This document shows, piece by piece, positions 2,233-43,595 of a DNA stretch of 64,000 nucleotides. The position numbers and the translations under genes were made by a program. Position 1 is the stretch's first letter. Each line of letters starts with the position of its first letter. The notes under the pieces were generated by a model. It saw only the letters and a list, made by a program, of their open reading frames with translations. It was not told the DNA's origin and did no database searches. Source of the stretch: Isoetes taiwanensis (Eukaryota; Streptophyta; Lycopodiopsida; Isoetales; Isoetaceae); NCBI GenBank assembly GCA_021234155.1, contig JAJEKV010000156.1:744001-808000 (forward strand), written 5' to 3'.

Positions 2233-3891
2233 ATGATACATCCCTACATTGCCATGAGTATGATACAGACATTGAAGACAGCAGGGCGCCTTGCTTTAGT
2301 CAGGGAGTCCAAATTTAGATTGCTTCCAAGTGTGTTTGCTGATTCTCAGAATCATTTTCCCTGCAGTCAGCTTTCTTCTTTTCGATCCAACACCACAACT
2401 GCAGATGCACCAGTCCAAAAGCAAATTAGCGACCCTAGTGTCGCCAAAGAGGCCAATTATTGGGGTATTCCTGTGGAGAAATCGCTCGAAAATCACTGGC
2501 CCTGGAATTGCTTCAAGGTATTCTCTTAAATTTATGCTTTGACTCTCTTATTTCATAATCACATCTGCAAGTTTTGCTCTTAAGAGTCTTGAATGATGCA
2601 TAAAATTCCTTATAACCATATTAATGTCGTTTCAGCCTTCAGATTCTTACAAGGCAGATGTAAGCATTAACCTAGAAAGGCACAAGGTACCAGAATGCTT
2701 GAGTGACAAGATAGCATACTATGGAGTGAAGGCCATGAGGGTTCCAACAGACATATTTTTTAGGGTAAGAACAGATATAACCTTTTATAATGATTAAGTG
2801 CATATTACAGCAAATTAGGACTAAGACTCTCTGTTCCAAAACTTCTTTTTCATGCTAGAAATATCAAAAGTCAGTGCAGATCCATTAAGGTCTCTTTTTT
2901 ATGTTAGAAATGTCTGAAATGAGCTAACTCTCCTTCATTTTAATGCAGAAACGTTATGGCTGCAGAGCCATGATGCTTGAGACAGTAGCTGCAGTTCCAG
3001 GAATGGTAAGTGGCATGATTTTGCACTGCAGATCCTTAAGAAAATTTGAGCACAGTGGAGGATGGATTAAAGCCCTGTTAGAAGAGGCAGAAAATGAAAG
3101 AATGCATCTCATGACCTTCATGGAAGTGTCTGAGCCAAAATGGTATGAAAGGGCCCTTGTGTTTACAGTGCAGGGAGTTTTCTTCAATGCCTACTTCCTG
3201 TTGTATTTGGTGTCTCCGCGCATTGCGCATAGGATGGTTGGATATCTGGAAGAAGAAGCTATCTATTCTTATACTCAATTCTTGAAGGAAATTGACAAGG
3301 GAAATATTGAAAATGTTCCTGCTCCTGCCATAGCCATTGACTACTGGAGGCTACCTGCTGATGCTACTCTTCGAGATGTGGTTACTGTTGTTCGTGCAGA
3401 TGAGGCTCACCACAGAGATGTCAACCATTTTGCATCTGTAAGAAAACAACTGAACATTTTTAGGAACAAAAAACCAAAAAAGCAAAGCCATTCATACACT
3501 TCGATGCAACCTTACTACACTAAAGCTTCCATGAAAAAGGAAAAGACGGGAAAGCAGTAGAAAATAGCAAAATTGATAACCTAAATAGCATAGCTCATAA
3601 TCTTCCTCAAAACGGTTCATAAACCTCGAACAACTTGTTAAAAGAGAAAAAGATGAAGACGAACAAGGACAATAGAAAAAAACGAAGAAATTCATAACTA
3701 GAGAGATTGTTCCACGGCATAGCCATAAGTAAATAATCCGTCCTTACAAATATTAGAATAAAGAAGGAAAGCCTTATTTCAGTACCACATAAAAGTGTTC
3801 GAACTAGTCTAACATATGATTTTATTTGTAGGATATTCATAGCCATGGGAAACAACTCAAAGAAGCTCCAGCCCCTATTGGTTACCATTGA
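2233..3891 (+). CDS. AOX: Mitochondrial alternative oxidase (ubiquinol oxidase), four exons
   Basis: Alternative oxidase takes electrons from ubiquinol and reduces oxygen to water in the inner mitochondrial membrane without pumping protons. Exons: 2233-2517, 2636-2764, 2949-3437 and 3832-3891 (stop TGA 3889-3891), all with GT-AG introns. Sizes 129, 489 and 57+3 nt for exons 2-4 are the conserved plant AOX sizes. The 320-residue product starts with a basic, Ser-rich presequence (about 1-60), then WNCF with regulatory CysI at 93 and YGCR with CysII at 143. Di-iron ligands are all present: E149 (LETVAAV), E188 and H191 (NERMH), E239 (LEEEAIYS), E290 and H293 (ADEAHHRD). The C-terminus EAPAPIGYH is canonical. 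ATGs at 2254 and 2260 are alternative starts that would shorten only the targeting peptide. Both regulatory cysteines suggest control by disulfide formation and by 2-oxo acids. Nothing looks broken; no AOX1 versus AOX2 subtype is assigned. Confidence 0.95.
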
Positions 3892-5019
3892 CTTGAATAA
3901 GAGATTTACAAAGAAAGACTTTTATTGCTTTTATGTTCCACCAGTTTAAAAGCATTTTAAAGTATTGTTTTCAAAAGGATGTATCAATCTGATTTATCAT
4001 TTGTGTGTGTTGTTAGTTTTCAAAGTTTGTGGTGGAAAGCCAAAAAGTTGAAATGATCGATGACATTTTCTTATTTAACTTCCCATTTTTTTGAGGGGCA
4101 AACCTTAGAGTGGAGAAACAACATAAATGTCGAATTGATTTCATTATAAGATGATGGTTTTCTTGGTTAGAACATGACAGTTGCTTGGTCAAGCACAAAA
4201 ACACAAAGACATGTAATGGACTAGGGCAAGGCATTTTTGCACAAGTTAATCAAACAATTGATGTTTGATATGGAGAATGATTTATACATGTTCTTTTTCT
4301 TTGGTGGGCACTCCTCATATTAGATAATAATGGACATTTTGGGATATTAATTGTAATTTTGTAGTGAAAATTCGCTAAATTGATGCTTGAGCCCACTCCT
4401 ACTTGCCAAAAAAGCCACTTTGACAAGGGCAGGGGTTCAACTCCCCTCAATGAAAATTTGCAATGTAAGATACAACATAAACTCCCCTCAATGAAAATTT
4501 GCAATGTAAGATACAACATAAACATGCTTACCGTACCTTAGCATCTTAAATTTAATGTGTCTTTGGATGAATGAACCTTTGGGATTATGGGGATTGAACA
4601 AGTTCAATTGCATGATTTAAGAAGGGAATACCTAGTTTCTAGATTGGCTCCTTTCAAGGAACAATTAGTTAATCAAAGAAGTCAATTTTGGATCTTTTGT
4701 CATATTCTTGGCATATTTGAAACTCTTAGGTTTGTAATCTTATTTTAGCAGGCTTGCCTAACCCCCCACAACAATCCATGCCATTACATCATGCTAAAAA
4801 TGATGTGGCATGATCCCATCCTGGAAAATTAGAAATTCCCCGAACTTTGTCTTCGATAGTTACCAGATTGTTTTTCTTTCCTCCTACGATTATTTGCCAC
4901 GATTTAGAATGTTATATGGCAGCTCCTGGATATCTAGACATTCGCTTGTCTCATAATCTGTTGATAGATTCTTTCTTTTGTTGACTTGGATTCGACCTCT
5001 AACGTATTTGAAGACACAC
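3892..5019. other. AOX 3' flank and unassigned intergenic sequence
   Basis: An AATAAG signal near 3896 could serve AOX 3' end formation. Apart from the 41-bp tandem duplication listed separately, nothing recognisable was seen in this AT-rich stretch. Confidence 0.45.
4439..4520 (+). repeat. Exact 41-bp tandem duplication next to a tRNA-like B box
   Basis: Two identical 41-bp units (4439-4479 and 4480-4520) begin AACTCCCCTCAATG and end TACAACATA. The first unit starts inside GGGGTTCAACTCCCC (4433-4446), a tRNA T-arm-like palindrome that matches the RNA polymerase III B-box consensus. A decayed tRNA-derived SINE is possible; no convincing A box was found. Confidence 0.6.
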
Positions 5020-5024
5020 AAAAC
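5020..5024. repeat. Left target-site duplication of copia element (AAAAC)
   Basis: AAAAC directly precedes the left LTR and is repeated at 9777-9781 directly after the right LTR. Confidence 0.85.
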
Positions 5025-5234
5025 TGTGAAGATATCAAGTGAAGATCTCAGCCACTCATCATGATGGCATATTCTGATGTAGAATAACAAGTAGAAGTCC
5101 TAGATGTCGATTGAGCTCAGTCGTGTCGTTTGGAGTCAGTTATGTTGTCTGTTCTATTCTATTATGAATATACGGAGTCTGCTATTGTCTAATCATGTGT
5201 TCTCTTTCTAGTTCTATATCTTTACATGTTTATA
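5025..5234 (+). repeat. 5' LTR of copia element
   Basis: It begins TGTGAAGATATCAAGTG and ends CATGTTTATA, so its termini are TG...TA rather than the usual TG...CA. It matches 9567-9776 over its full length with about six substitutions. Confidence 0.92.
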
Positions 5235-5246
5235 TGGTATCAGAGC
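5235..5246 (+). other. Copia primer binding site (initiator tRNA-Met type)
   Basis: TGGTATCAGAGC immediately follows the 5' LTR. This is the standard plant Ty1/copia primer site, complementary to the 3' end of initiator methionine tRNA. Confidence 0.93.
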
Positions 5247-5604
5247 TTACCGTGACGAACCTGGGCCCTGAATTCGGCTGCTGTTGAAGCAAACAAAATC
5301 GTTTTCAGTGGGAGCATAGAAGACTAACCCTAAAAACGTGGCAATCAGAGGAAGAGGGCGAAGGACAGCATGCCGAATCATAGAAGAAATCAACAATGTA
5401 GAATGGAGAAGGAGAGGAGAATTCAACGGGCCATATTGCGGGTGAACAGAAGACTTGCAATTCGGAAGAGAATTTCACAGAAGAACAGCAAAAATAGTGT
5501 CTTCAATTGCCTAAGAAGAATCATCTATCTATGAAGAAACCTTTCCGGCTCAGAAGATTTGTGAAGAGGTGTGAAGAAACTTTTCCCATCAACGATTTCT
5601 TCAA

Positions 5605-6045
5605 ATGGCCTCGTCAAACCAAGGTGTGGATAAATTAGTTGAAAACTTTTTAGAGAAGTTTACAGGAGATAATTTCCGTACTTGGTCAATTAAACTTCAA
5701 TTGCTGCTCATGAGAGAAGGGACTTGGGCTGTGGTAGAAGGGACTGATGCCAAGCCCGTAGATGAGCAACAGATTCTGCAAAATTGGTTGAATGGCAAGC
5801 AAGAGACAGAAAGGCCATTACCACAATAGGATTAGCACTTGGAGAGGAGTATGTTCATCTCTTGAACATAAAAGGAGACACAAAGCAGAATTAGGAAGCA
5901 TTACATAATGCATTTGGTGGAACAGGGAAAACATGTGAACTGGCACTTAAGCAGCAGTATTTTGGGATGGAGATGGAGGCAGAAGAAACCATTCCAGAAT
6001 TTGTAAGCAGGATGAGGTGTCTTAATGTGCAGCTTGAAGACAGAT
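5605..6045 (+). pseudogene. Copia gag remnant lacking the zinc knuckle
   Basis: The frame opens at ATG 5605 (MASSNQGVDKLVENF) and contains the copia gag pattern FTGDNFRTWSIKLQLLL, then stops at 5827. Gag-like sequence continues in other frames (AFGGTGKTCELALKQQY near 5910; ETIPEFVSRMRCL near 5985). It then runs straight into protease near 6050. The CCHC knuckle that normally separates gag from protease is not seen, so the C-terminal part of gag appears deleted. Confidence 0.8.
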
Positions 6046-7515
6046 GACAGATTCTTTATGGCAAGAGAAGTCTCTTTTGGTGGCCTATGCAGGTTGATTT
6101 GGCTGGATTCTGGAGCATCTTTATATATGTCACCTGCCACAGAATTGTTTCATACCTTAGAAATGCTACCAGCGGGAAGAAGAGTTTATATTGGTGATGA
6201 CACCTATCATGAGATCGCTGGAAGAGGAAGTATGATGGTGCAGGTGCAATCAGGAGATATGCGGATTGAGAGTGTGTATTATGTGCCTGGTATCACACAA
6301 ACTCTATTATCAGTGGGGAAGATCGCTGATGCAGGCCACTCCATTACCTTTCATTCACATAAGTGCTATATTTATGATGAGGAAGGCAGCCAAGTTGCAA
6401 CAGGCACACGCGAGGATGGGTTGTATAAGTTAGATGCAAGAGTCAAAGTTCCAGCTAGAGCTCTTGTCATCCGAGAGAAGGATTATTCTTTGCAACTGTG
6501 GCACAATCGAATGGGGCATCCCCACATTCAAGCCCTTGTGAAATTAAAGAATGAACAAATGGCAGAGGGTATTCACTTCATGGCGAGCAGTAGGTTGGAG
6601 TTGTGAGCCATGTGTTCTTGGAAAGCATCACCGACATCCTTTCCCATGAGTGTGAGAGCGAAGCAGCCTTTGGAGATAATCCATACGGATATATGTGGTC
6701 CCATGCAAACCTTGACCTTCAGCAGGAAGTCTTTCATGATAACATTCATTGATGATTACTCGAGATATGTTAGTGTATATCTCCTTGGTCGAAAATCCCA
6801 AGCACTTGCATGTTTTTGAGAGTACAAGGCTGCAGTAGAGAATAGAATAGAATAGAATATGATTTTATCGTCCACGGAGACCGACTGGCCTATGGGACCC
6901 AGAGAGGAGCACCAGTTATGTCATCAAAGTGTTGCGAAGCGATAACGGTGGTGAGTTTCAATCTGGTGCATTTAGTCAATTTTGTAGAGAAGCAGGCATA
7001 TTGCAGCAGTTCACCACCCCATATACACCTCAACAAAATGGGGTTGCGGAGCGAATGAATCATGCTTTGATGAAGAGTGCCCGCAGCATGTTGAATTTGG
7101 CTGGCATGCCCAAGCACTTTTGGGGGGAAGCTGTGATGACTGCAGCATATTTGTGCAACAGGCTGCCTACTTCTGCAGTGAATGGTCTCACACCATACGA
7201 AAGTTGGTTTGCCAAGAAGCCTACTTTGCAACATATCCGAATTTTTGGATGTGTTGCTTATGTCCATGTTCCAGATGAGAAAAGGAAGAAACTTGATGAT
7301 AAGAGTATGAAGACTGTGCTAGTTGGTTACTCGTTGGAGTATAAGGCTTACAGGTTATACCATTTGCAAGGCTGAACAATCATCATCAGCCGTGATGTGA
7401 TCTTCAATGAAGCTATGCTTTGTAATGGTGTAATCAATTTGGCTGCTGCTCAAGGGCATTTAATCTCCCGTGTGGTTGACTTCAGTATCATTGATGACTA
7501 GTTTGGGGCAGCAGA
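6046..7515 (+). pseudogene. Copia protease and integrase, broken
   Basis: The protease motif LDSGASLYM lies at 6103-6129 (catalytic Asp codon 6106-6108). The pre-integrase domain has LWHNRMGHPH (from about 6498), and its Cys pair CEPC is in another frame after a one-base shift near 6600. Integrase core: HTDICGP (about 6685), SDNGGEF (about 6939) and NGVAERMN (about 7038) supply the D, D and E residues. A ~70-bp LINE 3' end (6837-6907) interrupts the core between the two Asp residues. The integrase tail runs to a stop at 7372 and further in another frame. Confidence 0.88.
6837..6907 (-). mobile_element. Very short LINE 3'-end insertion inside copia integrase
   Basis: Read on the minus strand it is CTGGGTCCCATAGG, then GTCTCCGTGGACGATAAAA, then TTCTATTCTATTC. 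This matches the 3' end of the LINE at 26419-28761 (28690-28740). The copia reading on either side (EYKAAVEN, then VIKVLRSDNGGEF) is continuous once it is removed, so it is a separate, later insertion of a heavily 5'-truncated LINE copy. Confidence 0.82.
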
Positions 7516-8830
7516 CTCCATGCCCATATTTAGTAGTGCAGCATGGCCAAGTATGTCAGTAGGACCAAGTACTTCAGCAGGCCCAAACATTTCAGAAAGT
7601 ACAAGTTCTTTAACAGGTCCAAGTAACCATCCAACCCATGAAGAAGATAGTCCAGAAGGGTCTCAGCCTGAGCAGAATTTAGCAGATCAGATTTTGGACA
7701 TTGAAGAAGTACCTGGGCGAGTTCCATCTCCTCCTCGTCCTCATCCTTACACCCATCGTCATAGAGTGCCGGATCCAAGTCCAATTAGACCAAATCGTGG
7801 AGCCACAAGATCTGGTCGCATAAGTTATCTTTCCAAGAAGGCTCTTGAATCACAAGCAAGTCCAGGACCCAGTCACAAGCGAGCTCGTGGATTCCTAGTG
7901 ATTGGAAATGAGGAAGTAACTGAGCCAAGAACAGTTCGTGAAGCTTTGACAGGTCCATATGCTGCAAAATGGCAGCAAGCAATGGAGGTGGAATATGCAT
8001 CCATAATGAAGAATGAAGTATGGGAATTGGTGCAGTTACCTCCCCATAGACGTGTGGTGAGTACAAAATAGTTATTTCAAATCAAGCGCAGTGCTTCTGG
8101 AGAGATTGAGCGGTTTAAGGCCAGATTTGTAGCCCGAGTATTTTCACAGATTGAAGGTGTGGATTTCCATGAGACGTTTTCACCGGTTGTCACCATGGCC
8201 TCCATCCGCACCTTAATGGCTTTGGCAGTGCAAATGAACTTGGAAATTCATCAAATGGACGTCAAGACGGCTTTCTTGAATGGGCAGCTCAATGAAGAAG
8301 TATATATTTCACAACCAGAAGGATTCGTGATAGCAGGTCAAGAACATTTGGTATGCCGCTTGCATAAGTCTCTTTACGGGCTGCGTCAATCTCCTCGTGC
8401 CTGGTATGAACGCATACACACCTTCTTTACCTCTCTTGGTTTTGTAAGCAATGAAGCGGATGGCAATGTGTATGTTAAAGAAGTGGGAGATCTCTTTGTT
8501 CAAGCAGCCCTATATGTAGACGATTGTATCCTGTTATCCAATAATATAGAGGCCTTGGCGCGTGTGAAGCAGCAACTCTCTCAAGAATTTGAGATGACAG
8601 ATATGGGAGCCATCCATTATTGTCTTGGGATCCAAATTATCAGGGTTAGAGCAGCAGGCTGGCTGAAATTGGTACAAGCGCAGTATGTTGAAGTTGTTCT
8701 TGCACGCTATGGTATGGCAGATTGTAATCCAGTCACCACACCCATGGAGACCAGTACGCTCACCAAAGAGGTGTCCCCAAGCCGAAGAAGAGAAGGCACT
8801 TATGCAATTTGTGCCTTATCAAAGTGATGT
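7516..8830 (+). pseudogene. Copia linker and reverse transcriptase, broken
   Basis: A Ser/Pro-rich linker (7520-7850) leads into the RT start (EPRTVREALTGPYAAKWQQA, about 7922-7980). A stop at 8069-8071 interrupts it. RT continues with HQMDVKTAFLNGQLNEEVY (about 8250) and the catalytic YVDD at 8513-8524, then MTDMGAIHYCLGIQ. A frameshift near 8800 joins to the RNase H frame. Confidence 0.9.
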
Positions 8831-9515
8831 TGGAAGTTTGGTTTATCTGGCTGTTTGTACTCGACCAGACATCTCCTATGCAGTGGGAGTTGTTAGTCAG
8901 TACTTAGAAAATCCGGGACACACACATTGGTTGGCTGTTAAGCGCATTCTGCGCTACCTTCAAGGCACAATGCAGTATGCCTTAGTTTATGAGCGAAGTC
9001 ACAACCCAACAATGTTTTGTCTGATGGACTACACGGATGCGGATTGGGCTGGCGATCATGATAGTAGATGCTCTACTTCCGGATATATTTTCTTCATTGG
9101 CAACTGTTTGATATCCTAGAAAAGTAAGAAGCAGTCTATCATTGCATTGTCAAGTACCGAAGCCGAATATGTTGCTGCTACATCTGCTGCTCAAGAGCTT
9201 ATGTGGTTAAGAAGATTGTTGAGCGGTCTTATGCATGATCAACCAGGCCCTACCTTGCTGCTTTGTGATAACATGAGTGCTATTGCTCTGGCACATACCT
9301 TGAAGAATCATGCCAGAACCCGACATATAGACACTCGGTTTCATTTTATTAGAGAGCAGGTTCAGCAGGGTATAATCACTCTTGAACATTGCAGTACGAG
9401 TGATATGAAGGTTGATCTTCTTACCAAGGCTTTGCCTCGTGAGAAATTTCAGTCTGATAGGGATCAGTTGAGGATCATGCAGCATGAAAAAGACCACCAG
9501 CCTGATCACGGCTGA
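8831..9515 (+). pseudogene. Copia RNase H, broken
   Basis: Typical copia RNase H sequence: YTDADWAGDHDSRCSTSGY (about 9030-9090), an in-frame stop at 9117-9119, then ALSSTEAEYVAATSAAQE (about 9147) and LCDNMSAIALAHT. The catalytic Asp-Glu-Asp motifs (DADWAG, EAEY, CDN) are present. The frame ends with a stop at 9513-9515. Confidence 0.88.
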
Positions 9516-9566
9516 GTGGGAGTGAAGCTACATCAAAAATGCAGCATGATCATGGCTGAGTGGGAG
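9503..9566 (+). repeat. Duplicated polypurine-tract block before the 3' LTR
   Basis: Two copies of GATCAYGGCTGAGTGGGAGTG (about 9503-9523 and 9548-9568) precede the LTR; the second runs into its first bases. GAGTGGGAG is the only purine-rich block at the LTR edge, so the second copy is the probable plus-strand primer and the first a duplicate. Confidence 0.65.
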
Positions 9567-9776
9567 TGTGAAGATATCAAGTGAAGATCTCAGCCACTCA
9601 TCATGATGGCATATTCTGATGTAGAATAACAAGTAGAAGTACTAGATGTCGATTGAGCTCAGTCGTGTCGTTTGGAGTCAGTTATGTTGTCTGTTCTATT
9701 CTATTTTGAATATACGAAGTCTGCTATTGTCCAATCATGTGTTCTCTCTCTAGTTCTATATCTTTGCATGTTTATA
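9567..9776 (+). repeat. 3' LTR of copia element
   Basis: This 210-bp LTR begins TGTGAAGATATC and ends GCATGTTTATA. It is followed by the right target-site duplication AAAAC at 9777-9781. Confidence 0.92.
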
Positions 9777-13806: not shown

Positions 13807-13889
13807 GAGCAATAACTCTTTTATTAACAGTGGAAATTTTCCAAATATCCTTCCTTAAATGGATCTTTAAATGGACACTGCAAACTTTG

Positions 13890-15395
13890 ACTCTCTATGT
13901 GTGGCCTCCACTACTCTACGTGGAATGAAGACTCTTCAAGATCCTTTTCAACTCTATTGGCACTTACATCTCAACTGAATATGTTCCTGAAAGACCATCA
14001 AGATCCTTTGTTCAACTTGACCTGCCCAAACCTATACCTACTACAATTCCTTTTACAGATGCTTTTGAACAGAAAACCTCCCCATCACTTAGATGGTCGG
14101 GTCTGCCTCCTCAGTGTCAAAATTGTGATCAGAGAGATATTATTGGTATGAGATTTGCAAGAATAAACACCTTCAACACCTGGATACATCGAGGATTAAC
14201 ATTGATGATCAAAAAACCAATCAATATGGTCATAGTTCCAAGGTTTTCTCTATACATTTGGACAGTGTTAACCATAAAGATTCAGAGGAAGGGGAAAAGA
14301 ATATAATTGCAAATGGACAGGAATTTGCTTGGAAGAGAGCAAATGGTAGCCAAAGGAGAATTCAAAAGAAAAGGATGGAAAGAGAAATATAGAATCAAGA
14401 TGGAAAAACCATGGACTCTAAGTCAAGAGAGAACATCTATACAAACAATTATTCAACAGGAATAAAGGTTCTACAAAAATATGGAAATCTACAGTCAAAA
14501 GGAAAAGCTCCAATGTTCCCATCAAAGACTCCAACTGATGATCTTCATTCAACTCCTAACAAAATCATCAGGGATGCCAAAGTTTTACAAAATGTTAAAC
14601 CTTTATCATTAATGGATTTCTCTGTCCATATTAAAAGCAAGGGAGATTCATTAATTAGAAAACGCTATGCTAGTTATATACCTACACACAAGAAACAAGC
14701 CAGATAAAGCTTCTACTATCAAATTAGTAGGATCTAATTCTGGAGGCAAAGTCCTCCCAGTTCAAAACTCGGTTGCATCAACTTCTTCAACAAATATTGA
14801 TGCTTATACAAGTATCAAAAGGGGACCCAATGGCATTGCTAAGACATCCAACCAAGCAAAAGACATGATGCTTTCTCCAAAAAAGGACACACATAAAATA
14901 GTTGTGAATCAATTGGAGGATAATATTAATTGCTCAAATCAATATCAGGTACTTGCAACTCTTAATACTGACCATAACTTGGATTTAATGTTGAGCACTA
15001 CAAATAACCCTGATAAACTTGTCAATCCCTCTGTCAACCCCTCTGTCATAAATCTAACAGCTTTTATCATTCATTCACACCTTTGCTAAATATAGGTTCT
15101 CTTATTGATTTAGATCAAATTTGTACCCCCCTCCCCTAACCCTATATCTCCAGTAATATCCCCTGCTATTGAAGAGCAGTTAGCCTCTCTGCAAGAATGA
15201 TTGATAGAGAATGCAAAAGCTTCAGTCCAGAATGAAGAATTAGATAGCCAAATGTCAGCTCTACAGAACAAGGAATCATTTGATGAGGTGGTGTGGGATA
15301 CTCCAGAAAGATTAAAATTGATTGATCAGCAGTTGATTCCCGGCAGTCTCAGCCTAGAGATCCTTGGCATCAATGGGAGCAATGATGATTGTTAA
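13890..15395 (+). pseudogene. L1 ORF1 remnant (DUF4283 / zinc-knuckle type)
   Basis: In one frame near 13955-14120 the translation contains RPSRSFVQLDLPKPIP and then GLPPQCQNCDQR. This fits the plant L1 ORF1 pattern of a DUF4283-type domain ending in DLSKPLP, then LPxxCxxC of a CCHC knuckle. The knuckle is cut by a frameshift. Low-complexity, Lys/Asn/Ser-rich coding-like sequence follows in frames 14411-14707, 14667-15089 and 15201-15395. Confidence 0.65.
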
Positions 15396-15719
15396 CCATC
15401 CAGGCAAGTACCTCTCCATAATACCTCTAATATTTGCCTTTTTAAAGATAAAGTAAATAAAATGTTTGAATTTGTGTCGAGGGGTATCTCTGACAGTGAT
15501 ATTGATTTTGATATGACAAAGATGATTGGAAGAAGGATGAACACCTAAGGGATAATGTTTTGATTATAAAGCCTAACAAAAGACTTGATAAATCTAACAA
15601 TACCATTCCAAACTCTGTGATTAGTGTCCCAGCCAATAACACCAGAAGCGAAAAAAATAAGCTTAAGAATAGAAGATCTGGAAGGTTTGGTTGTCAATTC
15701 TAGTTTTAATATCTGAAGA

Positions 15720-16800
15720 GGATTGTTAGTTGGAACCTTAGAGGCATTAAAGGGTATTTAAAGAGAAGGAGAGCCATATCTCAACTTAAGCACTACAATA
15801 CAGACATTATGTAGGAACACAAATTACCTAAATTTGAATCCTCAAATCTCCTCCATCTGGATTGAAGCTGTTAATACAAAAGGGGGGTTGGCTATCATTT
15901 GGAAGAATATCAAGCACCGTATTTCTAGAATGTGGCAGGTAGTAACTTTCTCAGTCAATAACTCCAACTTTGGTGTGATCAATGTTTATGCATCCACAAA
16001 CCCAAAAGAAAGGGAAGGCCTCTGGCCAGAAATCAGCTCTTGGATTAAAAACAACCCTTCTTTTGATTGGATTCTTGCTGGGGATTTCAATAACACTCCT
16101 ATCTGGGATATGAAGCTTGGAAATAAAATAAATATGACCTCCATTGAAAAGCTCAGTTGAGACAATATGATCATTGATTCTGCCCTGATCCATATTCCTT
16201 CCTCTACTTCTAATTATTTTTGGTCAAATAAGCAGAAAAATCAAGCTCGAGTTTACTGTGTTGTTGATAGATATTATGTGTTTTGTTTTGTAACTAGTGA
16301 TGAAAGTACATCTATCTCTGACCATCAGCCCCAATTCCTTCACACTAAGCATTTGCTTGCTATTTCAAGAGATGGAAATATCCCCTTCAAGCTAAACTGT
16401 TCTCTTTTTTAGAATGAAGAGTTCAACAAAGAATTCATTGAATTTTACCAAAATATTGAGACTGGTTCTGCTTTAGGATCTATGCAATCCTTTTATTCTA
16501 AGCTCAAAGAGGCTAAAGGTTGGATTAAAAATTGGGCCAAGGTTAGACATCTTAATAGAATGAAAGAGACAGAAACTCTTCTAACCCACATGAAGGAAAT
16601 TAGATCAATGTTACATGCTGATACAATCTTCAAATAGAGGAGGAGATGTTAGAGAGTCATCTGAAAAATACTGAAGAAAGGGAGGCCAAGTGTGCAGCAA
16701 TTAAGTGCAAAATCAAATATAATAGTGAAATGGATTATGGCAGCTCCAAGTTTTTCTTTAGGGTTGCAAAGGATAGCTTCTTAAAAACTAAAATCAACTG
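15720..16800 (+). pseudogene. L1 ORF2 endonuclease domain remnant
   Basis: This is an apurinic-type endonuclease (EEP fold) that nicks target DNA to prime LINE insertion. Visible motifs: SWNLRGIKG (about 15726), EHKLP after an in-frame TAG (about 15815), GGLAIIWKN (about 15880), VINVYAS (about 15980), ILAGDFNNTP (about 16070) and SISDHQPQ (about 16314). These correspond to the catalytic N, E, GDFN and SDH signatures. Stops at 15812-15814, 16158-16160 and 16410-16412 inactivate it. The downstream linker (WAKVRHLNRMKE, KFFFRVAKDS) is the usual region before RT. Confidence 0.82.
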
Positions 16801-17860
16801 ATATGATTTGATTCAAAGGTGTTGCAGCTATCGTTTTTGAGATCGAAGTAAGTTACCAAGTATTTATTGGATCGAGGTACATGTGGGCCAAAAATTCTAT
16901 GCAAATTATTCCTAGGTGAATTATTGAGATCCCCCAAAAACAATCCTGCAAATGAATTGGTAATTTTGCTATCTTGGCATGAAATGATACCTATTTGCAT
17001 AGATCACCTTTTTGGCTTAATGCTCTCTTGTATTAGCAAGCTTTAGCAGTCCATGAATATGTATCATGTACTTTACAAATATAAATTCATCATCCACATT
17101 TCTAACTACGGAGATCATATCAATTCCAAAACCTTCCACATCATATCACAAACTGGCCAAAGTTGGCAGAGTTCACGACATGCCTGCATGAAAAAGCAAT
17201 ACATCCATCTTGAAAACAGGCTGGGGAACTTTAATCCTACCTTTTATGAGATAATATGTCCATAACCGAAATTAAAAGCAGAACCAAAGATAAGCAATCA
17301 GAGCTCAAACATTCTGTATACTTGATCATACCTTTTATGACATGATAATGTCCACAATAAAAAGTAGAAGCAATCACCAAAGATGGGGAATCAGAGCTCA
17401 AATATTGTTAGAATACATACTTCTAATATCAAATTCCACATGCCAGTAAGGCAGCCACCTCTGACATGGCATGCATTTAGCCATTGATTTTCAGATTATA
17501 TGGTCTAGATTTGTGCCACATTAAGAGGGGGGCCTGTAAAACGAAATGCTAACAGGACAACATCTTTATAAAGCTAAAAGAAAGGATACCTTCGAAATGC
17601 TTAAATATTCCAACAAAATAGCATTGGCTAGACTATAGACTCCTAAATAAACTACTGAACTTGAAGATAGATTTCACCTCTTACAGCAAAATATGGTAAG
17701 CAAATGGATCCAGTTCCGTTAATGGTTCAACAAGGAGACACTGCACTGGAATTGACTCCTCCCCCTGACTATGCAGTAGAAGGAATCATGGCCCCCCCAA
17801 AGAATGGCCAAAAATCAATAGCCGTAACAGAGCTGCAACCTGAAGTTATGCACTCAGATC
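16801..17860. other. Unassigned sequence with a short tandem duplication
   Basis: No gene is recognised. An imperfect ~90-bp direct repeat lies at about 17240-17320 and 17330-17410 (CCTTTTATGA...AATGTCCA...AATCAGAGCTCAAA). A plus-strand open frame at 17704-17886 is Pro/Glu-rich but runs into the following array and matches no family I recognise. Confidence 0.45.
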
Positions 17861-18478
17861 CTGCAGTCAAACTTTACGCTAATTGAAGGCAATCATATAC
17901 ACAACATAAAAATCTATCCTCATTGCCAGTTTCCACAAAATGAAAAGCATAAGATTAACGCATCTACGGCTTTAAAAAAATGCCAGAAAAAGGTAACCAA
18001 CCTGACTAACAAGCCATGAAGATTGCCTTCTGTACTACAGTTGGTGTAGCAGCCCAATACTCAGGCTTTCCAAGCTCCCACAAACGGGGAAAACCTGTCA
18101 AGGACTCCAACTTGAAGCCATCTAGAATGCACACTATAGTTACTCTCAATAAACAGGTCCTCTAGATTGTTAATTAAAATCCAGATTATATGGGTATCCC
18201 GAAAGTTAGATGTCAAATCCTCAAAAAGAAGCCCTTGAAAGGGGTTATGGCATAGATATTGGATACACAAATCTTCAAAAATACACACCTAAATGATGCT
18301 TGGTTTTGTCAGGCAATGTTATCCTATATTGGGCCAGAATACCGGCCATGTAAACCTCCTTTTCCATAGTAGCTTCATTGTCATGATCCGTTTCAGTGAT
18401 TGCATGCGATAGATTTTGCATATTACGACCAACAGATTAGAGATTTAGAGAATTTTGAAAAGCAGGGAAATGATGCGG
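17861..18478 (-). pseudogene. Serine decarboxylase-like pseudogene, array unit 1
   Basis: Read on the minus strand, exon A (after an ATATTACGACC-flanked acceptor region near 18420) gives LSHAITETDHDNEAT and then ARYRKTLPDKTKHHL. A donor AG|GTGTGT and an acceptor TTTC(A)G lead to exon B, which starts YPYNLDFD, then [18 protein letters not shown] and QVGVLD. The family pattern is KHHLGYPYNLDFDYG...[34 protein letters not shown] block of about 11 residues after NLDFD is missing, and one base is lost in [13 protein letters not shown]. Enzymes of this family make ethanolamine from serine. The unit lacks the PLP-lysine region and cannot be functional. Confidence 0.75.
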
Positions 18479-19079
18479 TCAAAGTTTACTCTAATTGAAG
18501 GCAATCATATGCACACATGAATGTCTATTCTCATTGCCAGATTCCATAAAATGAATGAGCATAAAAAGCATAAGATTAACACATCTAAGGCTTTAAAAAA
18601 ATTTTAGAAAAAGGTAACTAACCTGACTAACAAGCCATGAAGATTGCCTTCGATACCACATTTGGTGATGTAGCCCAATACTTAGGCTTTCCAAGCTCCC
18701 ACAAACTGGCAAACCAGTCAAGGACTCCAACTTGAAGCGGTCTAGAATGCACACTATAGTTACTTTCAATAAACGGGTCCTCTAGATTGTTAATCAAAGA
18801 CTATATGGGTATTCTGAAAGATAGAACTCAAAAAAAAGTCCTTGAAAGTGGTTATGGCATAGATATTGGAAACACATTTCAAAAATACACACCTAAATGA
18901 TGCTTGGTCTTGTCAGGCAATGTTTCTCTGTATCGGACCAAAATACCGGCCGTGTAAACCTTCTTTTCCCTAATAGCTTCGTTGTCATGATCCATTGCAG
19001 TGATTGCATGCGATAGATTCTGCATATTACGACCAACAAATTAGAGATTTAAAGAATTTTAAAAAGCAGGGGAACAACG
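18479..19079 (-). pseudogene. Serine decarboxylase-like pseudogene, array unit 2
   Basis: Same two-exon content as unit 1, with more small deletions in exon B (a missing stretch near 18800). The stop-creating deletion after NLDFD and the lost base before the NCGTEG motif are both shared with the other units. Confidence 0.72.
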
Positions 19080-19672
19080 AAGTCAAAGTTTACCCTAATT
19101 GAAGGCAATCATATGCACACATAAATATCTATCCTCATTGTCAGGTTCCATAAAATGAATGAGCATAAATAGCATATCTAAGGCTTTTCAAAAAATGCCA
19201 GAAAAAGGTAACCATCCTGACTAACAAGCCATGAAGATTGTCTTCTGTACCACATTTGCTGATGTAGTCCATTATTCAGGCTTTCCAAACTCCCACAAAC
19301 GGGCAAACCAGTCAAGGACTCCAACTTGAAGCGATCTAGAATGCACACTATAGTTACTCTCAATAAACATGTCCTCTAGATTGTTAATCACAATCCAGAT
19401 TATATGGGTATCCTGAAAGTTAGATCTCAAATCCTCAAAAAAAAGCCCTTGAAAGGGGTTAATAGCATAGACATTAACACAAATCTTCAAAAGTTTGTCA
19501 GGCAATGTTTTCCTGTATCGGACCAGAATACCGGCCATGCAAACCTCCTTTTCAATGGTAGCTTCATTGTCGTGATCCGTTTCAGTGATTGCATGCGATA
19601 GATTCTGCATATTACGCCAACAGATTAGAGATTTAAAGAATTTTGAAAAGCAGGGGAACGATGCAGTCAAAG
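19080..19672 (-). pseudogene. Serine decarboxylase-like pseudogene, array unit 3
   Basis: The best-preserved unit. A minus-strand frame from 19670 to 19272 reads through exon A (ITETDHDNEATIEKEV, then MAGILVRYRKTLPDK), the intron, and exon B ([18 protein letters not shown], then WFARLWE). The frame is open through the intron only because of deletions. It ends at a stop in the frameshifted position shared with the other units. Confidence 0.78.
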
Positions 19673-20271
19673 TTTACCCTAATTGAAGGCAATCATATGC
19701 ACACATAAATATCTATCCTCATTGCCAGATTCCATAAAATGAATGAGCATAAAAAGCATAAGATTAACACATCTAAGGCTTTAAAGAAATTCTGGAAAAA
19801 GGTAACCAACCTGACTAACAAGCCATGAAGATTGTCTTCTGTACCACAGTTGCTGATGCGGGCCAATATTCAGGCCTTCGAAGCTCCCACAAACGGGCGG
19901 GCGAACCAGTCAAGGACTCCAACTTGAAGCGGTCTAGAGTGCACACTATAGTTAAACGGGTCCTCTAGATTGTTAGTCAAAATCGACATTATATGGTTAT
20001 TTCAAAAATTAGATCTTAAATCATCAAAAAAAGGCCCTTGGGGTTATGGCATAGACATTGGAAACACAAATCTTGAAAAATACACACCTAAATGATATTT
20101 GGTCTTTTCAGACAATATTTTCCTGTATCCGGCCAGAATAACGACCATGTAAACCTCTTTTTTCCTAATAGCTTCATTGTTATGATCTGTTTCAGTGATT
20201 GCATGCGATAGATTCTGCATATTACGACCAACAGATTAGAGATTTAGAGAATTTTGAAAAGCAGGGGAACG
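19673..20271 (-). pseudogene. Serine decarboxylase-like pseudogene, array unit 4
   Basis: Same content. Exon B lacks the block spelling ESNYS (the marker is followed directly by AAACGGGTC near 19952), and the region near 19860 has an altered NCGTEG segment (GATGCGGGCCAATATTC). Confidence 0.72.
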
Positions 20272-21775
20272 AGGATCTTCGTTATTTCTGCTGAAAGCTC
20301 TCTGCACCATGTCGGAGGCATGAAAATCTAGAATAAACAAATGGTTGCTAGCATAATCGGCAAGCAATCTCACACCAAAATGGAACATGGACATAAAGAA
20401 AGGCAAATGTTGCATCAAAAACTTTTTAGTGGTCCAGAGTTTTTCCTTTGACTCCAAGGACCGGAGTAACCTATCTTAGATCCATCTGAAAATTGGGAAG
20501 GAAAAATCATTCATTCGTTTTTCGTATGCATTATTGAACTAAGCAGAAAGGGCAAAATAATAACTAACTACTAAATGGCCCAAAATAAAAGTTGTGAAAC
20601 ACAAATAAATTAACAGTCAAGATCGCGCACAAACTACTGTCATCTAACCAGAAAAAGGTAACCAACCTAACTAACAAGCCATGAAGATTTCCTTCTGTAC
20701 CACAGTTGGTGATGTAGCCCAATACTCAAGCTTTCCAAGCTCCCACAAACGGGCAAACCAATCAAGGATTCCAACTTGAAGCGGTCTAGAATGCACACTA
20801 TAGTTACTCTCAATAAACAGGTCCTCTAGATTGTTAATGAAAATCCAGATTACATGGATTTTCATTAACAATCAAATCATAAAAAAAAGGCCCTTAAAAG
20901 GGGTTATGGCATAGACATTGGAAACATAAATCTTCAAAAATACACACCTAAATGATACTTGGTCTTTTCAGGCAATGTTTTCCTGTATCGGGCCAGAATA
21001 CCGGCATGTAAACCTCTTTATAGCTTCATTGTCATGATCCATTTCAGTGATTGCATGCGGTAGATTCTGCATATTAGAGATTTAGAAAATTTTGAAAAGC
21101 AGGGGAACGATGATCTTCATTATTTCTGTTGAAAGCTCACTGCATCTTGTCGGAGGCATGAAAATCTGGAATAAATAAATGTTTTCTAGCACAATCGGCA
21201 AGCAGCTCATATCAAAATGGAACATGGACATAAAGAAAGACAAATGTTACACCGAAACCTTTTTTGTAGTCCAGAGTTTTCCCTTTGATTCCAAGCACCT
21301 GAGCAACCTATCTTAGATCCATTTGAAAATTGGGAAGGAAAAATCATTCATGTTCGTTTTTCGTATGCATTATTGAACTAACCAGAAAGGGCAAAATAAT
21401 AACTAACTCATAAATGGCCCAAAATAAAAGTTGTGAAACACAAAGAAATTAACGGTCGGAGGGATGAAAATCTGGAATAAACAAATGGTTTCTAGCATAA
21501 TCGGCAAGCAGCTCACACCATGGACATAAAGAAAGACAAATGTTGCACCGAAACCTTTTTAGTGGTCCAGAGTTTTCCCTTTGAATCCAAGCACCGAGTA
21601 ACCTATCTTAGATCCATCTGAAAATTCGGAAGGAAAAATTGTTCATGTTCGTTTTTCGTATGCATTATTGAACTAGCCAGAAAGGGCAAAATAATAACTA
21701 GCTACTAAACGACCCAAAATAAAAGTTGTGAAATACAAAGAAATTAATGGCTAAGATCGCGCACAAATTATCATC
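20272..21775 (-). pseudogene. Array unit 5 with repeated upstream module
   Basis: The decarboxylase exon part occupies about 20641-21108. Flanking it are three copies of a ~330-370-bp module (20272-20640, 21109-21455, 21456-21775) marked by TCGGAGG(C/G)ATGAAAATCT, GCATAATCGGCAAGCA and TTTTCGTATGCATTATTGAA. On the minus strand the module lies upstream of exon A, so it is probably the gene's 5' exon, intron or leader. Its minus-strand open frame (20457-20236) matches nothing I know. Confidence 0.65.
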
Positions 21776-22234
21776 TTATTTTGATTTTGATATTATCCTA
21801 TCCTAATAATATTAATAAGGTTATAAGAATGGGGGTTTCTCATGCCCCCTCATCCACACCCCATACATATATGCCCATGAATTACCTTCTAATCCCCACC
21901 GTTTGCAAAAAATATTAAGCGTTCAGATTGTGACACCTCATAGGGCATGTGATGGCCATGCATGGGGCATGCAGCCTCATCTCCTAGCCGTTGGATAAAA
22001 GGGTTAGGTGAAATCTACACCATTGAAATTAACTAAGAAATATCTTAGAAGCTTCGTAAATTAGGGCAAGGGATCTGAGCCGTTCTTGAAAGGGGCATAA
22101 ATATTGGCCGTTGATTGAAAGGGACTCTTTATTTGAAGTTTATGATCGGGCTTTTCTTTCGGGATGCGCATACGCGGCATTGATCAAAACTGAGCTCTTC
22201 AAAGGGTAGCGGTGTCAGGTTTCCGAAGGAGAGA
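21776..22234. other. Unassigned sequence upstream of the DHH-like fragment
   Basis: No gene is recognised. A repeated CATGCCCC / GGGGCATG pairing (about 21840 and 21975) gives weak dyad symmetry. CCGTTGGATAAAA (about 21989) is promoter-like but unproven. Confidence 0.4.
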
Positions 22235-32684: not shown

Positions 32685-35011
32685 TGTTGATGGCAAACCT
32701 GGCTAAGCCACCAACCTCAGGTCAAAGAAGCACTAATCTTGGTCTAGGACCTCCAGATCACTTGAGGTGATCACTCTGTGCTGAAATATCTGTTCTTAAA
32801 CTTCCAGAAAACAAGATTTCACTAGTTTCCCAAAAGCCAGAAAAACTAGTCTTACTCTAACAGGCACAGAGATCAATGTGCTCGACATTTTGAACCCAAA
32901 CAGGCATAGCATGCCACAATGATATCTGAAGAAAGTGCTGTAGAAAGTCTATGCATAGAAGCTTCACGGTTGGTGAGAAATAATGATTCTTGACCAAGTC
33001 AGAAATTGGTCAATGGACTGGACAGTGCACTAAATTTTGTCAAATAAGAATGGTGATGAATTTTTATGCAACTAAATTGAGACGAGTGAACACGAAGTCG
33101 CACAATAAGAGCATGCTATTTTCAAGATCAAAAATTGATGCGCAATTTGGGAAGCATGTCTGAGCATCTAATGTTCATGAAGGATGAGACAGACTTTAAA
33201 ACATCAATAGGTTGATCTTTCTCCTCTTTTTTCTTAGCTTTTCCTTTCCTAAATGATCGTACTAATGCAGCTAGAGCTTTTGTATGCAACCAGATGCAGA
33301 GGTATGGCTTTTTCTTCCTATTTATAGAGTTAATTCAAATATAAATGCATCAAACGATATTTTCCAAGGTCAGATTTTCATTAAACTGGAATCAAAGTCA
33401 TCACATTTGATATCATGTCAATGATCAAGATGATCAATCAACAGGACATCTCTAAAATACATAAATCGTGAAGTTTTGGATACAAATCAATCATAATGTG
33501 CCTCAGGATCAATCTCTTAAGGCAGGAGGAACTCTCAGCATCAATTCCGACTTCACACTTCAGGTACTTCGTCTTTGAATCGCGCAAAAGCCCACGAATT
33601 TTTCATCGAATGAATCCCCTTTTAAAAAACTCTGTTTCCGGCCGGATCTTGGCAAATTTGGGATCTTGGCCATGTTTTTGGTTGGTTTAGGTACTTCTTT
33701 GGCTGTAGCAGGACAGAAATGGTTGGCCACTGCAATGGTTGTTCAGTTTGATCGAAGAAAAATCCAGTTCTTGGCAAGCTAGGTTTTAGGGTTCGAAGTT
33801 TTCTTGAGAACAATTATCCCACAGGCAAGAATCAAAAAATAGGCCAAGGTATAAATAGAGATCTATTTTCATCTCTCTTGATTACGTGGTCTTCTCCCAC
33901 GCCAAGCTTTCGGCTCGTGTTTTCGACTTGGCATGCTGGGGGGCGCCACTTGGCGAGAGGATGAGAGGGTAGATAGATGGGGGGTAGATGTAGGTAGGTT
34001 TTGCCATTTTTTAAATGAAGCACGCTTCCCAAGAAAACCATTTAGAAGACCAATACACACTCTTTTTTCAAAAATTTTTGTGCCAGCTGGCATGACTTCA
34101 TGAGGGCTATCAGGTGGTATCATCAAACTTTCAAATGCAATACTTTGATTTTTTGTGGAAAAATGAATGGGGTTAGTAGGTATTAGACATGGGATTTGGT
34201 GAGGTGGCATGGAGGAAGAACAAGGCTAATAGGCACATTTGTCAATCATTTCAATCTTATGGTTGACCAACTTTTTGGGTTTGGTCAACATTTGCCTAGT
34301 CATCATTTGATGATGCAAGGTGATGTGATGATGTGGAATGATGTAATGGTGTTAAGTGATGTAATGGTATGGAGTGATGTGGTGATGTGGACACTTGTTG
34401 CTTAGGTGGCAACTTGGTGAATGACTTATGGAAGTGGCAAATGATGAGTGGACCAATGTGGCTTTGTAAGTGATGACATATGTATCTAGTCATCATGCCA
34501 TGTCACTTGGAGGTAGTGACTAGGCAAACTCGTGTTTAGCTTTTCCTTTCTTTTTTTTTTTTGTATAGCATAAAATGCCCCCCCTTTTTGCCACATGGTA
34601 TGGAGTGTGTGATAGTGGAATGATATGATGAAAAAGATGATGTAGAACTTGATGCTTAGGCAATCCTTTTGGTGTAACAACTTTGCAAATGTGCCCTAGG
34701 TAGTGGTAGGTCAACTATGGAACAAAAGGCTATGTGTGAGGTGTATGATAGTATGGGGTGATGGAATGTTGGAGATGTGGAGTGTAAGGTAAGGGAATAG
34801 AAATGACAATATGAAAGAGAAAAGATACCACTTTAATAGCTTGCAAACTTCATAGGGGTCTTCCAAACTTCTAGATGCTTAGATCCTCTCAATGTGTGAC
34901 CTTGATTCCAGTTCAATGTCTTCACTTGGTTCTTCAACATAGTATCTTCTTTTCCCTGCAACATAAATAAGATTTGCTGGCACTTTGCCATGTTGCCATA
35001 GCAGGGCAACA
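32685..35011 (-). repeat. 3' LTR of gypsy element (left copy)
   Basis: 2327 bp; plus-strand ends are TGTTGATGGC and CAGGGCAACA. Near-identical to 41267-43595, with small indels concentrated near 33060-33150, 33520-33570 and 33905-33950. On the minus strand TATAAATAGG (33318-33327) is the probable LTR TATA box. Confidence 0.93.
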
Positions 35012-41266: not shown

Positions 41267-43595
41267 TGTTGATGGCAAACCTGGCTAAGCCACCAACCTC
41301 AGGTCAAAGAAGCACTAATCTTGGTCTAGGACCTCCAGATCACTTGAGGTGATCACTCTGTGCTGAAATATCTGTTCTTAAACTTCCAGAAAACAAGATT
41401 TCACTAGTTTCCCAAAAGCCAGAAAAACTAGTCTTACTCTAACAGGCACAGAGATCAATGTGCTCGACATTTTGAACCCAAACAGGCATAGCATGCCACA
41501 ATGATATCTGAAGAAAGTGCTGTAGAAAGTCTATGCATAGAAGCTTCACGGTTGGTGAGAAATAATGATTCTTGACCAAGTCAGAAATTGGTCAATGGAC
41601 TGGACAGTGCACTAAATTTTGTCAAATAAGAATGGTGATGAATTTTTTATGCAACTAAATTCAGACAGTGAACACGAAGTCTGCACAATAAGAGCATGCT
41701 ATTTTCAAGATCAAAAATTCAGTCTGCAATTTGGGAAGCATGTCTGAGCATCTAATGTTCATGAAGGATGAGACAGACTTTAAAACATCAATAGGTTGAT
41801 CTTTCTCCTCTTTTTTCTTAGCTTTTCCTTTCCTAAATGATCGTACTAATGCAGCTAGAGCTTTTGTATGCAACCAGATGCAGAGGTATGGCTTTTTCTT
41901 CCTATTTATAGAGTTAATTCAAATATAAATGCATCAAACGATATTTTCCAAGGTCAGATTTTCATTAAACTGGAATCAAAGTCATCACATTTGATATCAT
42001 GTCAATGATCAAGATGATCAATCAACAGGACATCTCTAAAATACATAAATCGTGAAGTTTTGGATACAAATCAATCATAATGTGCCTCAGGATCAATCTC
42101 TTAAAGGCGGGGAGGAACTCTCAAAGATCAATTAGACTTCACACTTGGTGCCTTCTTTTGAATCGCGCAAAAGCCCACGAATTTTTCATCGAATGAATCC
42201 CCTTTTAAAAAACTCTGTTTCCGGCCGGATCTTGGCAAATTCGGGATCTTGGCCATGTTTTTGGTTGGTTTAGGTACTTCTTTGGCTGTAGCAGGACAGA
42301 AATGGTTGGCCACTGCAATGATTGTTCAGTTTGATCGAAGAAAAATCCAGTTCTTGGCAAGCTAGGTTTTAGGGTTCGAAGTTTTCTTGAGAACAATTAT
42401 CCCACAGGCAAGAATCAAAAAATAGGCCAAGGTATAAATAGAGATCTATTTTCATCTCTCTTGATTACGTGGTCTTCTCCCACGCCAAGCTCGGCTCGTG
42501 TTTCGACTTGGCATGCCAGGGGGGACGCCACTTGGCAGAGGATGAGAGGGTAGATAGATGGGGGGTAGATGTAGGTAGGTTTTGCCATTTTTTAAATGAA
42601 GCACGCTTCCCAAGAAAACCATTTAGAAGACCAATACACACTCTTTTTTCAAAATTTTTTGTGCCAGCTGGCATGACTTCATGAGGGCTATCAGGTGGTA
42701 TCATCAAACTTTCAAATGCAATACTTTGATTTTTTGTGGAAAAATGAATGGGGTTAGTAGGTATTAGACATGGGATTTGGTGAGGTGGCATGGAGGAAGA
42801 ACAAGGCTAATAGGCACATTTGTCAATCATTTCAATCTTATGGTTGACCAACTTTTTGGGTTTGGTCAACATTTGCCTAGTCATCATTTGATGATGCAAG
42901 GTGATGTGATGATGTGGAATGATGTAATGGTGTTAAGTGATGTAATGGTATGGAGTGATGTGGTGATGTGGACACTTGTTGCTTAGGTGGCAACTTGGTG
43001 AATGACTTATGGAAGTGGCAAATGATGAGTGGACCAATGTGGCTTTGTAAGTGATGACATATGTATCTAGTCATCATGCCATGTCACTTGGAGGTAGTGA
43101 CTAGGCAAACTCGTGTTTAGCTTTTTCCTTTCTTTCTTTTTTTTTTGTATAGCATAAAATGCCCCCCCTTTTTGCCACATGGTATGGAGTGTGTGATAGT
43201 GGAATGATATGATGAAAAAGATGATGTAGAACTTGATGCTTAGGCAATCCTTTTGGTGTAACAACTTTGCAAATGTGCCCTAGGTAGTGGTAGGTCAACT
43301 ATGGAACAAAAGGCTATGTGTGAGGTGTATGATAGTATGGGGTGATGGAATGTTGGAGATGTGGAGTGTAAGGTAAGGGAATAGAAATGACAATATGAAA
43401 GAGAAAAGATACCACTTTAATAGCTTGCAAACTTCATAGGGGTCTTCCAAACTTCTAGATGCTTAGATCCTCTCAATGTGTGACCTTGATTCCAGTTCAA
43501 TGTCTTCACTTGGTTCTTCAACATAGTATCTTCTTTTCCCTGCAACATAAATAAGATTTGCTGGCACTTTGCCATGTTGCCATAGCAGGGCAACA
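41267..43595 (-). repeat. 5' LTR of gypsy element (right copy)
   Basis: 2329 bp, same termini as the left LTR. On the minus strand TATAAATAGG at 41901-41910 is the probable promoter TATA box, leaving about 640 bp of R-U5. A TATAAATA on the opposite strand (42433-42440; 33850-33857 in the left LTR) could drive antisense transcripts. Confidence 0.93.

Follow-up and report, generated by a model that had tools for sequence, protein, structure and literature searches.

A tandem array of dead serine decarboxylase exons in Isoetes taiwanensis, very probably the remnant of a gene-capturing Helitron

Introduction

Tandem arrays of truncated Helitrons in plants were reportedly described by Xiong et al. 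in 2016. In the excerpts available from PMC12628747 and PMC6591975, such arrays are local, repeat the 5′ end of the element and have a single 3′ end or none. Non-autonomous Helitrons that carry host gene fragments are known from maize and rice; as portrayed in the excerpt of PMC2575219, they occupy an A|T target, begin with TC and end in a hairpin followed by CTRR. In Arabidopsis, a gene-containing unit of ~0.4 kb is repeated in tandem in the tRNA-Cys cluster, within Helitron-annotated sequence; according to the part of PMC10701932 consulted, these tRNA genes seem to be expressed, and Helitron prediction tools were not reliable at that locus.

Here we describe a locus that resembles each of these systems. 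It lies in a 64,000-nt stretch of the Isoetes taiwanensis genome (contig JAJEKV010000156.1, positions 744,001 to 808,000), referred to as the window. Like the truncated-Helitron arrays, it is a local array in which a Helitron 5′ end is repeated; like the Arabidopsis cluster, it repeats a gene-derived unit, in this case exons of a serine decarboxylase (SDC). Three single-unit relatives elsewhere in the genome (L001, L002 and L003) share with the maize and rice elements the A|T target, the TC 5′ end, the hairpin and CTRR at the 3′ end, and a host gene fragment as cargo. We conclude with high confidence that the array is what remains, after decay, of a non-autonomous Helitron with a captured fragment of the host SDC gene.

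Results

On the minus strand, window positions 17862-21093 hold five head-to-tail units, named A to E in 5′-3′ order, each running from within SDC exon 1 through intron 1 and exon 2 into the beginning of intron 2. With unit boundaries as we set them, unit A (20649-21093) is 445 bp long, B (19658-20256) 599 bp, C (19072-19657) 586 bp, D (18474-19071) 598 bp and E (17862-18473) 612 bp. A 600-bp array query retrieved the other four units at E values of 8.6e-153 to 1.5e-198, far beyond chance. On the 5′ side, the array is accompanied by three copies of a 5′ module, all on the minus strand. Copy 1 (21456-21796) consists of Helitron 5′ subterminal sequence without SDC, and most matching rows from elsewhere in the genome (26/38) stop at its outer edge, at 21796-21797; copy 2 (21094-21455), with a period of 295 bp, leads into unit A; and copy 3 (20257-20645), which lacks the terminal TCTATATATAATAC part, leads into unit B. 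No module accompanies C, D or E. Beyond copy 1, positions 21797-21806 contain the degraded Helitron 5′ terminus and the junction to the host flank, at the point where family copies end as A|TCTATATATAATAYTAAA. At the other end, the 3′ flank of the array (17451-17861, minus strand) is common to L001-L003, with window 17451-18475 matching L001 3955-4968 at 84%, and another part of the element body, at 16790-16947 on the same strand, matches these three elements at 73-76% identity. An earlier note on this DNA had recognized five tandem minus-strand units with two exons each, and the array is as it described; its span of 17861-21775 is correct if the 5′ modules (to 21796) are counted in, its unit length of ~600 bp applies to four units and fails for unit A, and the upstream module that it mentioned accompanies only A and B of the five, one extra module copy lying besides.

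Unit A contains a perfect palindrome with a 19-bp stem around the intron 1/exon 2 border (window 20820-20885), which is absent from the folds of units C and E (folding covered A, C and E). It looks like a template-switch mutation, i.e. a quasi-palindrome correction.

The identity of the exons, previously proposed from family motifs, is confirmed by structure database matches: a composite sequence, assembled by hand from the reading frames of the units, hit three serine decarboxylases in the PDB at E values from 1.5e-45 to 6.6e-42. An intact SDC gene is located on a different contig from the array (C1038:7736922 onward). Manual joining of the exons along the open frames yields a protein of 478 amino acids, of which residues 54-469 align to PDB 8jg7_A at E 2.3e-239 without a disabling break. 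A genome search with a 117-aa SDC stretch gave 16 matching rows (26/26 candidates scored). The C1038 gene, 91% identical, is the sole row covering residues 40-117 without a stop, one being a lower bound on the number of SDC genes because the assembly has gaps; the row at C1026:12583206 shows 41% identity over residues 40-107, also without a stop. Likeness to plant serine decarboxylases (PDB 8jg7, 8jij, 8jik) extends over exons 1 and 2 of the units and over the whole C1038 gene. The array units differ from these enzymes in being frameshifted fragments that lack the later exons, among them the one with the SGHKF motif of the PLP lysine. With SDC homology and disabling lesions together, the array is a serine decarboxylase pseudogene. 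A processed (retro) pseudogene is ruled out, as intron 1 sequence is kept in all five units.

To place the array among its relatives, the unit DNA was searched against the genome, giving 18 rows (13/13 candidates scored). Besides the five units of the window and the gene, these rows represent ten loci, L001-L003 and L005-L011. The genome-wide copy count proposed in the earlier note thus returns one five-unit array and other copies that are single or partial, all counts from the assembly being lower bounds. L001, L002 and L003 are blocks of ~5 kb, 99.1-99.5% identical, that end abruptly in different flanks. All three begin with A|TCTATATATAATAATAATGG..., and L002 and L003 end in the hairpin GCCCAGC-AAC-GCTGGGC followed by CTAG|T, giving element lengths of 5,092 bp (L002) and 5,094 bp (L003). 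In both, A precedes and T follows the insertion and there is no target duplication. L001-L003 have the 5′ TC, and L002 and L003 also the 3′ hairpin and CTRR, of a Helitron. For L003 only, an exact empty site was found: its flanks, joined at A^T, match C919:1178605-1178844 over 240/240 bases. The 5.09-kb Helitrons L001-L003 moved recently. Their match to the window runs from the 3′ flank to mid-module only, and the outer ~1.26 kb on their 5′ side, terminus included, does not match the window. Owing to this dissimilarity, their ends look like those of another Helitron subfamily that took up, and now carries, the older SDC body.

Two features of these elements are recorded in their own right. The empty and the filled L003 site (1275311 onward) lie ~97 kb apart on the same contig, C919. 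Their flanks are identical across 240 bases, as would be expected if this region had been duplicated recently or is duplicated in the assembly. The L001 element is split by an 8,156-bp Helitron (C1034:9834937-9843092; sequence read at the edges only) inserted between the A and the T relative to L003, which interrupts its 3′ end. This nested Helitron contains a PF14214 Rep domain, and L002 and L003 show the uninterrupted site. The genome-wide search for PF14214 found the domain in 150/150 candidates scored, of 1813 at first look, and indicates, on the Rep domain, that an autonomous partner of the Rep/helicase type is present in the genome.

The window copy itself is linked to Helitrons by its 5′ module, whose first part is 5′ subterminal sequence from a dispersed family of Helitrons. 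A search with the module gave 38 non-window rows (40/360 candidates scored); 26 of these end at 21796-21797 and 2 at 21800, and the remaining 10 do not reach this far. Fetched family copies start with TCTA(T/C)ATATA(A/G)TA..., and A precedes the TC in 8/8 distinct fetched loci with a recognizable terminus, 7 of them independent because L010 and L011 share flanks (L015 and L018 repeat L011 and L010, respectively). The terminus is damaged in L021, L008, L009 and the window, where degradation has left no recognizable terminal TC at the 5′ end. The order 5′ terminus (A|TC), module, SDC is complete in L010 and L011. To the right of 21807, the host flank matches C967:935748 onward at 88-96%, and to the left of this match C967 has other DNA where the window has the element; because the match stops at the Helitron end, it supports the element boundary independently. 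No 3′ hairpin with CTRR was found in the whole window at up to 2 mismatches, and a search of the minus strand at 9.8-18.0 kb, limited to perfect stems of ≥6 bp, detected no 3′ Helitron end and recovered the L003 end as a control. Lacking both a detectable 3′ end and the terminal TC, the window copy is a remnant. The short motif TTTGTGCGCGATC on its own is non-significant (2 matches; 15/100 shuffles reach 2 at two mismatches), and the Helitron assignment is therefore based on the long alignments. The earlier reading lacked this context: what it called an upstream module starts with Helitron 5′ sequence, which makes the SDC fragment Helitron cargo.

The SDC homology starts at one point inside exon 1 (TTGGTCGTAATATG) in units B-E and in L001-L003, L006, L007, L010 and L011, and the DNA upstream of this breakpoint is common to these copies and unrelated to SDC. 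Unit A has lost 14 nt at the capture junction, and L005 does not extend to it. A common breakpoint with a common upstream neighbour in several copies is explained by a single capture. L008 and L009, which start in intron 1 and have neither exon 1 nor the common junction, could represent a deletion derivative or a second capture.

All five units share a 35-bp deletion after NLDFD, which removes YGALSQLQHFS, and the loss of one G before NCGTEG, in line with the deletion and the lost base that the earlier note had read at these points; unit D lacks 5 bp beyond the common deletion. In the gene, the 35-bp segment is flanked by two GATTA direct repeats and the lost G lies within a GGGG run. Both sites are prone to mutation or slippage, and, judged on the lesions alone, independent recurrence is possible. 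The 35-bp deletion is also present in L001-L003 (3/3) and L005, i.e. in 4/4 copies of the lineage that cover the site, and absent from L008, L009 and the intact gene; in L006 the SDC homology ends just inside the deletion site, and L007, L010 and L011 stop short of covering it. The lost G is shared by 3/3 of L001-L003 and not by L008 and L009, L005 having no coverage there. In a maximum-likelihood tree, the units, L005 and L001-L003, i.e. the lesion carriers, form one clade with support of 98/98; the tree treats gaps as missing data, so the deletion itself plays no part in this grouping. Because single-unit relatives elsewhere carry the same lesions, death of the fragment preceded its tandem amplification, in agreement with the previous proposal that it was amplified after it died.

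The units differ among themselves by 8-13%. Over exons and intron, K2P distances between units are 0.088-0.149, compared with 0.138-0.160 to the gene, which is constrained; C and E are the closest pair (0.088). The tree, built from 14 trimmed rows with L010 and L011 left out for little overlap, nests L005, the unit on C1038, among the window units. Forcing the five window units into a clade that excludes L005 lowers the log-likelihood by 21.37 and is rejected (p-AU 0.000244). In this tree L005 occupies 43% of the columns and some of the inner branches are weak (4/11 starred); the nested position could reflect an old conversion event. Pairwise identities of L005-L011 in the untrimmed comparison are too low, as those rows include unrelated flanks. 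The segment around L005 on C1038 corresponds to window 3.2-18.3 kb in separate pieces. Most of these are 90-96% identical and two are at 80 and 84%; there is one inversion, and other DNA lies between the matching pieces. Over C1038 and C967 together, identity in the duplicated segments is mostly 90-97%. With L005 nested among the units, the array, which these sequence comparisons make out to be old, was probably multi-unit before the C1038 segment was duplicated. There is no sign of recent homogenization, and the earlier suggestion that the units had since been homogenized is supported neither by the distances nor by the nesting of L005.

Several other features lie in the window. An alternative oxidase exon (2928-3557; PF01786, E 2.1e-77) in the left flank adjoins, and partly lies within, the stretch duplicated on C1038. 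A Copia-like retrotransposon occupies 5025-9776 (integrase ORF; end repeats 97% identical); the C1038 counterpart matches window 4329-5027 and 9803 onward, with 2.8 kb of other DNA in between, none of it listed as matching the Copia-like element. The stretch at 13823-16158 is inverted in the C1038 counterpart and is, going by motifs, presumably LINE-like; among seven window ORFs searched against Pfam, the two in 13.9-16.2 kb had no match to any family. Further along, 33872-34391 and 42468-42972 are similar stretches 8.6 kb apart. Both contain the beginning of nearly the same ORF as well as an identical 18-bp tandem repeat, and they may be the two LTRs of a retrotransposon.

Discussion

The sequence of events that best accommodates these data begins with a Helitron lineage that took up, in one capture, an SDC segment starting partway through exon 1. 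One sublineage then lost 35 bp of exon 2 between the GATTA repeats, and one G, which broke the frame. It exists as single units in the 5.09-kb Helitrons and as the tandemly repeated copy in the window. By the tree, in which the short sequence from C1038 is decisive, the repeats probably predate the duplication of the segment that comprises the left part of the window and its C1038 counterpart. A rival account, in which the SDC gene was tandemly duplicated at its own site and then decayed, with no transposon involved in the capture, would agree with the retention of intron 1, by which the fragment is no processed retrocopy. We consider it extremely improbable, because the intact gene lies on another contig and lacks the junction, its exon 1 running on upstream past the breakpoint, while the other exon-1 copies with sequence there join one non-SDC DNA at one point and L001-L003 are mobile. 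Little more can be said for a young satellite repeat in the making, homogenized by gene conversion, as had been envisaged before. The monomers of ~0.6 kb with one common junction speak for such a repeat, and C and E are closer to each other than the other pairs, yet the assembly has five units at one array locus (counts being lower bounds), the units have diverged by 0.088-0.149 and L005 nests inside them; the long homogeneous arrays at many loci that define satellite DNA are replaced here by one five-unit array. We give this alternative next to no weight.

Having preferred a Helitron-borne fragment, we can ask how it became repeated. The junctions B-C, C-D and D-E have one common breakpoint, TAAACTTTGAC-...-TTCCC or nearly so; the junctions between modules 1 and 2 and between A and module 3 are products of different events. 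Given the common breakpoint, the simplest account would be one illegitimate duplication of ~0.6 kb, enlarged by homologous unequal exchange. Two separate duplications would have copied the Helitron 5′ module, possibly through aberrant rolling-circle replication. Aberrant rolling-circle replication may also be invoked for the entire array. The model, as given in the excerpt of PMC12628747, predicts repeated 5′ ends and lost 3′ ends, and the same source describes many plant arrays with multiple 5′ ends and a single 3′ Helitron end; in the window, the 5′ module is present in three copies and no 3′ end was found. The prediction fits the modules but not units C-E, which have no module. Moreover, a start close to the terminus is seen in module copy 3 alone, with module 2 starting further inside, and the internal breakpoint common to three unit-unit junctions is better explained by local duplication and unequal exchange. 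By analogy with those arrays, a rolling-circle origin of the whole array would thus be possible but rather unlikely. As to a role for the repeats, small or antisense RNA from the array could in principle repress the intact SDC gene: four of the five units contain exact matches of ≥21 nt to the exon 1-intron 2 stretch of the gene (longest matches, some partly intronic, 31 nt in A, 27 in C, 23 in D and 26 in E, with 18 in B), and unit A can form a perfect hairpin with a 19-bp stem. However, at ~13% divergence over ~430 bp the neutral estimate ln(np)/−ln(1−p) gives a longest run of ~29 nt, so that the observed matches have about the length that neutral decay would leave; the hairpin of unit A is not formed by units C and E, and inverted repeats of ≥60 nt are absent from 15-25 kb. 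A repressive role, as read from sequence, would be very improbable, and the array is most likely without function. A hairpin-RNA locus arising from inverted duplication is ruled out by the same absence of inverted repeats of ≥60 nt from 15-25 kb. It would be similarly far-fetched to suppose that an old Helitron-borne array has been kept through segmental, perhaps whole-genome, duplication and is transcribed, feeding small RNAs that tune the only intact SDC gene found.

The locus allows three steps to be put in order, from capture of a gene fragment by a Helitron, through death of the fragment, to its tandem amplification, and one genome keeps the intermediates: the intact parent gene, deletion-free copies, single-unit mobile copies and the array. 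A captured coding sequence can thereby be the starting point of a tandem repeat. For annotators, the locus calls for caution, as its five decarboxylase-like units are transposon debris. Literature searches returned nothing joining Helitron with 'serine decarboxylase' and nothing on 'serine decarboxylase' with pseudogene and transposable element; among the matches listed, as titles and abstract beginnings, none dealt with Helitron gene-fragment capture combined with a tandem exon array.

Compared with the gene-fragment Helitrons of maize and rice, as described in the excerpt of PMC2575219, the window copy has no recognizable ends and carries its cargo in tandem. The truncated-Helitron arrays, in the available parts of PMC12628747 and PMC6591975, differ in what is repeated: in the window, the repeat is mainly captured exons and most junctions lack a 5′ end. 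Unlike the tRNA genes of the Arabidopsis cluster (PMC10701932, in excerpt), the SDC cargo is dead, and related Helitrons with defined ends and an empty site accompany it in the genome. As far as these partial sources go, Helitron gene capture and Helitron-derived tandem arrays are both known, and the window array combines them.
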